Source: Medicago truncatula (Eukaryota > Streptophyta > Magnoliopsida > Fabales > Fabaceae). Taken from it: a stretch of DNA of 64,000 nucleotides. Below, in pieces: positions 27,801 through 30,800 of the stretch. The notes beneath the pieces are model-generated. The model had not been told where the DNA came from and ran no database searches. It saw only the letters and a list, made by a program, of their open reading frames with translations. Within the stretch, counting starts at the first letter, position 1, and every line of letters begins with the position of its first letter. The stretch is taken from positions 44,231,762 to 44,295,761 of the forward strand of contig NC_053042.1 of assembly GCF_003473485.1 (NCBI RefSeq), in the 5' to 3' direction. Position numbers and translations under genes: made by a program.

Positions 27801-30800
27801 CTTAAAATTTTATTTATTTAGTCTTTAAAAATAAATTTTAAATAGGGATTAAAATAACCAAAACATTATAAGGTAGTTTTAGTGTAAGCACGCTCTTTGT
27901 CCATGTCTAGTGGGCTTTCCTCGTTTAGGATTGTGCATTGCAGAAGTCATTCTTGAGTTGGGTTCTTGCTTAGCAGCTTGATATTTAAGGTTTCTACTCC
28001 TCCAAACTTGAAATTTGTGTTGTTGCTTTGTAGTCTGTATAAGAGATGGTATCTAATAGCTACAACACTGTTATTCTGATACACAGCGAGTATGGTTGAT
28101 TTCCTCTGCACTGTAATAATCTTGTATGGCACATCTGCCTAGAATCATCGAAGAAGCTTGACAAAACTGTCTGAAGTTTTTGCATGAATGCATTTGGAAT
28201 TTTGTGTTATCTCCAGAAACTAATTGATTAATTTTCCTCCAGTTTATTGCAGATGGTATTGATCCAAGATTGCAGACTTTTATGCATTGGTAAACTTTAT
28301 ATTTTCTACACCGTTCTGAAATTTTCCTACACCCATATACTTTCATATAACTGTTTATGAAGTAAAATGGTCAATTGGTAATGTCTATATGCAGTGGCAA
28401 GCGAACCATACAGGTTAGGCCAGAAGCTGCACGTTTTGAAGAGTTCCAGGATGTGGACTCACCGGCTTTAGCTGATAATGCAGACCCACCCGTATTAGCT
28501 ACGGATGTGGATCTACCTATCCTAGCTAATGATTTAGACTCTCCGATCTTAGCCATAACTAATAATGCAGACCCACCGGTCTTAGCTATGGATTTGGACC
28601 CACTGGTCCTAGCTAATGATGCTGACTCTCCAGTCTTGGCCTTAACTAATAATGCAGACCCACCAGTCTTAGCTATGGATGTGGACCCACCGGTCTTGGC
28701 TAATGATGCAGGCTCACCGGTCTTAGCTAATGATGTAGGCTCACCGGTCTTAGCTAATGATGTAGACTCGCCAGTCTTAGCTATGGATTCAGATCCACCA
28801 ATCATGGCTATTGATGAAGACCCACCGATCTTGGCTATGGATGCAGATCCACCGGTCTTTGATTCTGGAACTACTTTAGAAGATATTGAATTTTTGAAGA
28901 AGGCGGGCGGAAATTCTGCAACTACATCAGGTATTTTAGTTGTTTATTTTATATTCTTAAAAAGCTTTATGAACTGTTATAAGGTCCCACATTAGATGAG
29001 ATATAGTTGAAAATGTGTTTTTAAGTGGGAGACATCCTTCGCCTTACAAGACATTTTTGTAGGGAAATTTAAAGAAAAGTCTCACTGAATGTTTTTGAAA
29101 GGTTTTCCTCTGTTGATTCTTGAATATCCAGCAATCACTTCTGCAATAAATCATGACATATCTTAGCTGAACTAATTCAAAGTTAAAATATATTTTCCCT
29201 TCAAAGAAGTTTGCAAGTCCTTTTTCTCTTATGACCAAATTGTTAATATGTGTTGAGCATGATTTCTTGTTTTTTTTTTTGATAGAGAAGTATGATTTCT
29301 TGTTCTGAACACTCATTCTGATCATATGTCACATATTGCAGGGGTTGCAAACACAAATATTGTATCTAATCTCAATCCAGATTGTGTCCCACCAGTATCT
29401 GAGCATGATAACGGGACTCCTTCAGCGCAACAGGCTGGCAATACAAGGAAGTTACCAGTTGAGCAAATTACCCCACAAATGTATTTCCCTGATCATTTTT
29501 ATATCCTTTGTTAACTTTTAAACTAATATGTATGTCAAATAGAAGGCTTTGTTAAAAATGCACCAGCTTTACTTTTTTTCCACTCTTAATAAATTCAGTA
29601 TTGGTGGGGTAACCTTGGCGCAACTGGTAAAGTTGTTGTCATGTGACTGAAAGGCCACGGGTTCAAGTCCTTTAATAAATTCAGTATTGCTATATTTCTA
29701 GGTTAAATATTTGACATGTAAAGGGTTTAGTCTTTTAGATGTAGAGGAAAAAGAATGCAAGGAATATTAAAATAATATAGATATATTATTGAGTGATATG
29801 TTGGATGTTATTACAAACTAAAAACGCCAATCATTATTTATACTGATTCTAGGTTTTTAGTCCTAATTAAATAAGGAAACAAATATTGATAAACAGGCAT
29901 ACAATATTTTTTTTATGTGATGCCTAAATGAGTGTCATTATTGGAGTTTATAGGCTTTGTTGAAATAAGTTGTTACTTACACTTTTAACTTGTGATTATA
30001 AATTTATAACTCTTGCTAAAAGTACAATGATTCGTGGACACATACTTGACGTAGTTCTTTCGAAATCATTTCAGGATAGCCCAGTTGGAGAAGCGCGAAT
30101 TTTATCATTCTCACAAAGCCCAGGTGATGAGTGACCACCATTTGTTTCCCTGCACTTTTATTTTCACTTCATGTTTATAGAAATTGTCTTTAAAAAACCA
30201 TGAACCGACCTCCATTGAGCAGCCTAAACTCAATCCTTCCCATTGAGATGTAGACCATCAGATTCAAGCAAGGAGACTGAAATACAGGAAAGCCTTGGGG
30301 TTTTATGTGATAAGAAGGTACCGCTCAAGGTAAAGGGGAAGTTTTACCGTACAACTATAAGACCAACAATGTTGTACGTGATGGAGTGGTGGGTGGTAAA
30401 ATGTCAACACCGGAGTAAAGTTAGTGTAGAAAAGATGAGAATGCTATGCTAGATGTGTGGGATACTAGATAGAGTATGCTTAGGAATTATTATATTAGAG
30501 AGGTAGTTGGGATAGCATCTTTTATAGGAAAGATGGTTGGATCTAGATTTAGGGGGTTTGGGCATGTGTGAAGGAGACCTGTATATTCCAAAGTAAGGAG
30601 AGTAGATCAGATGTAGTGTAGCTCAGTTGCTAGAGGCAAAGGAAGACCAAGAAACACTATAGGAGAAACTATCAAGAAAGACATAGAAGTCAATCGTTTG
30701 GATAAAAAACTGAAAACATTCTTTTATGCTGAATATTGAGTCCTAATTTTTTTTTTTTTTAATTCCAGTTTCATTTTGTTGAGAATGTTGAATACTTACC

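Follow-up and report, generated by a model that had tools for sequence, protein, structure and literature searches.

An in-frame coding minisatellite in the linker of an EMF2-type Polycomb gene of Medicago truncatula

The window analysed here, a stretch of 64,000 nucleotides of Medicago truncatula DNA, contains an EMF2-type gene (18839..32731, forward strand) in which 15 tandem units of a coding minisatellite lie between the zinc finger and the VEFS box. The array is read in an open frame, sits within a coherent exon model and has an unexpanded counterpart in MtVRN2. It is probably a lineage-specific, in-frame expansion of the linker in an otherwise intact EMF2, now tolerated as a flexible acidic spacer that is perhaps weakly conserved. 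Su(z)12-type subunits stand at the core of Polycomb silencing and of the control of flowering; their VEFS box joins the catalytic lobe of PRC2, and the linker connects the zinc-finger part with that lobe.

The array and the gene that carries it

In-frame translation of 28450..28866 (forward strand; residues 426-564 of the model) gives 139 residues in 15 units of the form D-x-D-[PS]-P-[VI]-L-A-x, 13 of nine residues and two (units 4 and 7) of eleven, exactly as the preliminary description had counted them. The majority unit is DVDPPVLAN. A8 is invariant across units 1-14, P5 and L7 each recur in 13 of them and D3 in 12, even though the codons vary. The 139 residues include 27 aspartates, one glutamate and no lysine or arginine, for a net charge of -28, and six SP sites; the pI of the model protein is 5.05 with the array and 7.19 without it.

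Tandem Repeats Finder (TRF) scores the array at 252 for a period of 27 bp, with 70% matches, and at 359 for a period of 87 bp, compared to a top score of 53 among 200 dinucleotide-shuffled versions of the exon. The 87-bp (29-residue) period is a higher-order repeat on top of the 27-bp unit, present in three copies at 28477..28731 on the forward strand (units 2-4, 5-7 and 8-10), the third of which is 81 bp and lacks the extra 6 bp; identities between the blocks are 71/87, 67/81 and 64/81. A codon tree of the units groups 2/5/8, 3/6/9 and 4/7. Units are on average 72% identical in pairwise comparison, the closest pairs sharing 26/27 positions, and we infer that the array grew stepwise and mostly not recently. 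A recent hypervariable VNTR is not favoured, given this mean identity and the 70% TRF match at period 27.

The array matched only itself (one match) in a DNA search of the genome, and the second of the two matches in a peptide search had an E-value of just 0.44; in both searches the best candidates were scored and very common words skipped. An origin from a transposon or satellite was rejected on the grounds that neither of these searches, which score only their best candidates, found other copies in the genome. Among viral contigs, 19 pattern matches to the array were recorded and none was confirmed as a relative. The array looks like the local amplification of a linker segment that already existed. 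Elsewhere in the window, a 214-bp unit occurs in two tandem copies at 15327-15761 (95% matches), and a 184-residue open frame on the reverse strand at 34960-35514 is oleosin-like by eye.

The exon model was drawn by hand from the genomic sequence alone. It comprises 22 coding exons and 790 residues, with GT-AG borders at all 21 introns, a single continuous frame whose one stop is terminal, and one weak acceptor, located 5′ of exon 5. Three Pfam domains lie above their cutoffs: DUF7651 (residues 68-274, 219.6 bits), Zn_SUZ12 (PF23320, residues 318-384, 94.8 bits against a cutoff of 28) and VEFS-Box (PF09733, residues 623-757, 138.4 bits against a cutoff of 23); three additional weak matches fall below theirs. 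The core of the C2H2 zinc finger is encoded by exons 12 and 13 (26647..26851, forward strand) and most of the VEFS box by exons 18-22 (30075..32731, forward strand), the Pfam match starting at the end of exon 17. The array is contained within exon 16 (28395..28930, forward strand; 536 nt) and lies between the two domains, where the preliminary description had placed it. The relatives found in the PDB are ten SUZ12 sequences, one of them an EZH2 chimera; the five SUZ12 alignments shown cover the zinc finger, weakly (i-Evalue ~0.03), and the VEFS box.

Several other repeats and repeat-like stretches were observed in this gene. In exon 9, a second coding repeat, a run of period 3 (25165-25225), encodes a serine-rich tract, and intron 3 contains 524 bp of nearly pure (AG)n, about 264 copies (20730-21253). 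By eye, broken frames resembling LINE-type reverse transcriptase are found in introns at 24000-24790, 30228-30740 and 21270-21540, and a tRNA-like stretch, possibly SINE-derived, in intron 17 (29607-29670).

The assignment to the EMF2/VRN2 family made in the preliminary description is upheld and can be sharpened. The protein has the VEFS box that defines the plant Su(z)12 family, where the SUZ12 chains of the PDB also match, and a C2H2 zinc finger N-terminal to it. It has the long N-terminus of the EMF2 subgroup, starting with MPGF and containing DUF7651, whereas MtVRN2 starts with MCRQN. The Met-Cys N-terminus left by truncation is the hallmark of VRN2 in the available text of PMC7754370 and PMC8788455, and the model contains no Met-Cys dipeptide anywhere. 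This absence also contrasts with the EMF2 proteins of multiple angiosperms, which keep an internal Met-Cys according to the available text of PMC8788455. The features of FIS2, repeats of 17 and 21 residues and restriction to Brassicaceae, do not apply to a Medicago protein with units of nine or eleven residues. Membership of the protein in PRC2 is presumed.

Of nine candidates in a genome search with the VEFS box, five were exon matches: four lie on contig C5 at 4.14 Mb, and the fifth, within the window gene, contains stops because the match extends into an intron. According to the available text of PMC8303337, M. truncatula has two VEFS-Box proteins; it lists MtVRN2 (Medtr5g013150) at 4,143,460 and MtEMF2 (Medtr1g090240) at 40.42 Mb, and reports expression of MtEMF2 in flowers, fruits and leaves; Medtr1g090240 is paired with MtrunA17_Chr1g0196821 in that of PMC7460785. 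The C5 locus fits the published position of MtVRN2, and since the only other VEFS gene found lies there, MtEMF2 is the very probable identity of the window gene. The published MtEMF2 position is ~3.8 Mb away from the window (C1:44231762-44295761), an offset that may reflect a different assembly version.

Comparison with MtVRN2 and origin of the array

MtVRN2 was modelled from C5:4140001-4150000, guided by the window protein and by splice sites, as 14 exons and 1287 nt, against 16 exons and 1437 nt in the model already published (PMC8303337, available text). From the zinc finger onward, exons 12-22 of the window gene pair with MtVRN2 exons 4-14; the entry phase agrees in 11/11 pairs and the length in eight (53, 54, 60, 47, 49, 84, 80 and 90 nt), namely exons 12-15 and 18-21 against exons 4-7 and 10-13. 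The three unequal pairs measure 536/122, 139/277 and 175/124 nt (window gene/MtVRN2). The first of these is the array-bearing exon 16 against MtVRN2 exon 8, and exon 16 without its array would be 119 nt, compared to 122 nt. From NFEF in the finger to HSH in the VEFS box the window protein has 275 residues, or 136 without the array, against 183 in MtVRN2; the difference is smaller than the array because the next exon, exon 17, is shorter here.

MtVRN2 exon 8 ends in ...NFLKLDSPEGIQNGVLQKDN and has a single 'LDSP...N...VL' segment at the site where the array begins. In an alignment limited to these two sequences, at 34% identity, the F, DSP, N, VL and D of MtVRN2 fall on the array start. TRF found no array in the modelled MtVRN2 exons, its three rows on that stretch all being extra-exonic. 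The linker of Arabidopsis VRN2 also contains LDSP.

An ancestral 'DSP...N...VL' stretch, which MtVRN2 still has as a single copy at the equivalent position of the matching exon, was probably the seed of the array, multiplied as 27-bp and afterwards as 87-bp blocks. Unit 1 (DVDSPALAD, 28450..28476, forward strand), which aligns with the lone LDSP segment in MtVRN2, is proposed as the descendant of this seed, and the protein would have gained ~138 residues between the zinc-finger part and the VEFS box. The direction of change, from single segment to array, is presumed in this scheme; with MtVRN2 as the sole comparison, loss in MtVRN2 instead of gain here may be the alternative.

Selection on the units and alternative readings

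The unit had been described as staying strictly in frame, and selection at the protein level had been suggested. The frame is indeed open, but a 27-bp period tends to hold a stop-free frame open, so that strict phasing amounts to few independent events, and one antisense frame is likewise open across the whole array. The comparison of nonsynonymous and synonymous change between units that had been proposed as a check gave a pN/pS of 0.46 (codon-column bootstrap 0.23-0.81) for units 1-14, with unit 15 left out and the two extra codons cut from units 4 and 7 for alignment, and 0.50 with unit 15 included. A codon model with an omega of 0.45 was better than one with an omega of 1 by a log-likelihood difference of 2.86 (likelihood ratio test, nominal P 0.017), in a model with six kappa values, the same topology and more parameters than its nine codon columns. 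In a neutral simulation on the neighbour-joining tree, 5.8% of 1000 runs were at or below the observed ratio (P 0.058; median 0.77), and a permutation of column variability gave P 0.061. Across the 12 units of a frame control that omits units 4, 7 and 15, the ratio was 0.57 in the true frame, 0.83 in one shifted sense frame (9 of the 12 units with stops) and 1.02 in the other (8 of 12); the open antisense frame had a ratio of 0.58 over 14 units. Judged from these sequence comparisons, purifying selection on the peptide is suggested, not shown, because two of the three tests miss 5%, and the claim of selection is therefore weakly supported.

Two readings share the proposed origin of the array by expansion and differ in what the peptide does, and the odds of the readings overlap. 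It is possible, though less probable than a spacer perhaps weakly conserved, that slippage and unequal exchange, acting on a permissive linker, produced a passive minisatellite whose peptide has no function beyond the open frame. The share of neutral runs at or below the observed ratio and the similar antisense ratio are consistent with this, but the nominal likelihood ratio test and the retention of the D, P, L and A columns under synonymous turnover argue against it. Rather unlikely is the other reading, in which the unit serves as a motif for binding or phosphorylation and the number of its copies makes a difference to the partners of PRC2. The same conserved columns despite codon variation, the omega of 0.45, the six SP sites and the presence of DSP in MtVRN2 as well would suit such a multivalent module; however, no partner is known, the selection tests are marginal (P 0.058 and 0.061), and one segment is enough in MtVRN2.

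Splicing of the array out of the transcript as an internal intron, or an error in the exon model, is very improbable. An intron at 28414-28899 can be drawn in frame, with a candidate donor at 28413 (CAG/GTTAGG) that scores like real donors, and 14 in-frame donor-acceptor pairs, two of which remove the whole array, lie above the lowest scores in the model. However, those pairs all use acceptors 28900 or 28903, which score under 20 of the 21 modelled acceptors in a matrix built from the model's own sites, and exon 16 has a GC content of 47% compared to 30% in the adjoining introns. Skipping of the whole exon would place the VEFS box out of frame because exon 16 has entry phase 2 and exit phase 1, and the entry phases of exons 16 and 17 agree with those of MtVRN2 exons 8 and 9. 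The published MtEMF2 (2079 nt, 17 exons, pI 6.41 in the available text of PMC8303337) differs from the 2373 nt and 22 exons drawn here, which counts against the proposed expansion, as does the mismatch between the two MtVRN2 models. Derivation of the published form from this model by removal of one to seven exons was rejected, since the five frame-keeping subsets have a pI of 4.92-5.42, none near 6.41.

Least probable of all is a small beta-solenoid in place of a flexible spacer: the best AlphaFold2 (AF2) model of exon 16 alone draws 15 regularly spaced strands (pLDDT 60.6, pTM 0.53), but the other four models have a mean pLDDT of 35-45, none of the 47 PDB matches listed reached E<=0.001, unrealistic AF2 beta-solenoids are reported for perfect repeats in the available text of PMC11795689, and stacking would leave the aspartates uncompensated. 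The strands are not readily dismissed as a habit of AF2 for any repeat, as the open antisense frame, which is repetitive too, gave no solenoid (pLDDT 39.5, pTM 0.17). A cryptic fold was rejected because nothing in the PDB fold search reached E<=0.001. The segment is most likely a flexible acidic spacer with a repeated DSP/DPP-x-L-A motif, its disorder and spacer role being the expected rather than the observed part.

Meaning and comparison with known repeats

The N-terminal part and the VEFS domain of SUZ12 lie in different lobes of mammalian PRC2 (PMC8788455, available text), and by analogy the added residues would make the tether between these two parts longer. By roughly doubling the stretch between finger and VEFS box, the array provides a natural experiment on the importance of the linker, with MtVRN2 as an unexpanded relative and built-in comparison in the same genome. 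If the unit does act as a multivalent motif, unit number would serve as a natural dial for Polycomb silencing; a tuning of PRC2 by copy number had been suggested in the preliminary description. If copy number varies among accessions, a tie to flowering time in this model legume is possible.

The repeats of FIS2 are serine-rich and located between the finger and the VEFS box. The linker of the family had been described as variable and not repetitive, which agrees with the available text of PMC8303337 for VRN2 and EMF2, to which it ascribes no repeats, but not for FIS2, to which it ascribes repeats of 17 and 21 residues. Repeats are therefore not foreign to the wider family, and the array is a variant of a feature already known there, in another subgroup and another plant lineage. 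FIS2 derived from VRN2 within Brassicaceae (PMC8788455, available text), so the array and the FIS2 repeats are independent events. Among the papers listed for repeats in EMF2/VRN2, no title dealt with such repeats, and the available text yielded no description of an array in MtEMF2. A more far-reaching parallel to FIS2, in which the Medicago lineage multiplied a single DSP...VL motif ~15-fold into a charged multivalent module that alters the reach or partners of EMF2-PRC2, appears quite unlikely.

Compared with its relatives, the window protein is like EMF2 in its long N-terminus with DUF7651, its SUZ12-type zinc finger and its VEFS box, and unlike EMF2 in the 139-residue tandem array of its linker and the missing Met-Cys dipeptide. 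It shares with MtVRN2 the order of the exons and their entry phases between the zinc finger and the VEFS box, as well as the DSP segment at the array start, whereas MtVRN2 has a Met-Cys start, no modelled counterpart of the long N-terminal part, repeat-free exons, a longer exon 9 (277 nt against 139 nt in exon 17) and a finger-VEFS stretch 92 residues shorter. Like Arabidopsis FIS2 (PMC8303337, available text), it is a VEFS-family protein with amino-acid repeats, although the unit is 9 or 11 residues here and 17 and 21 in FIS2.
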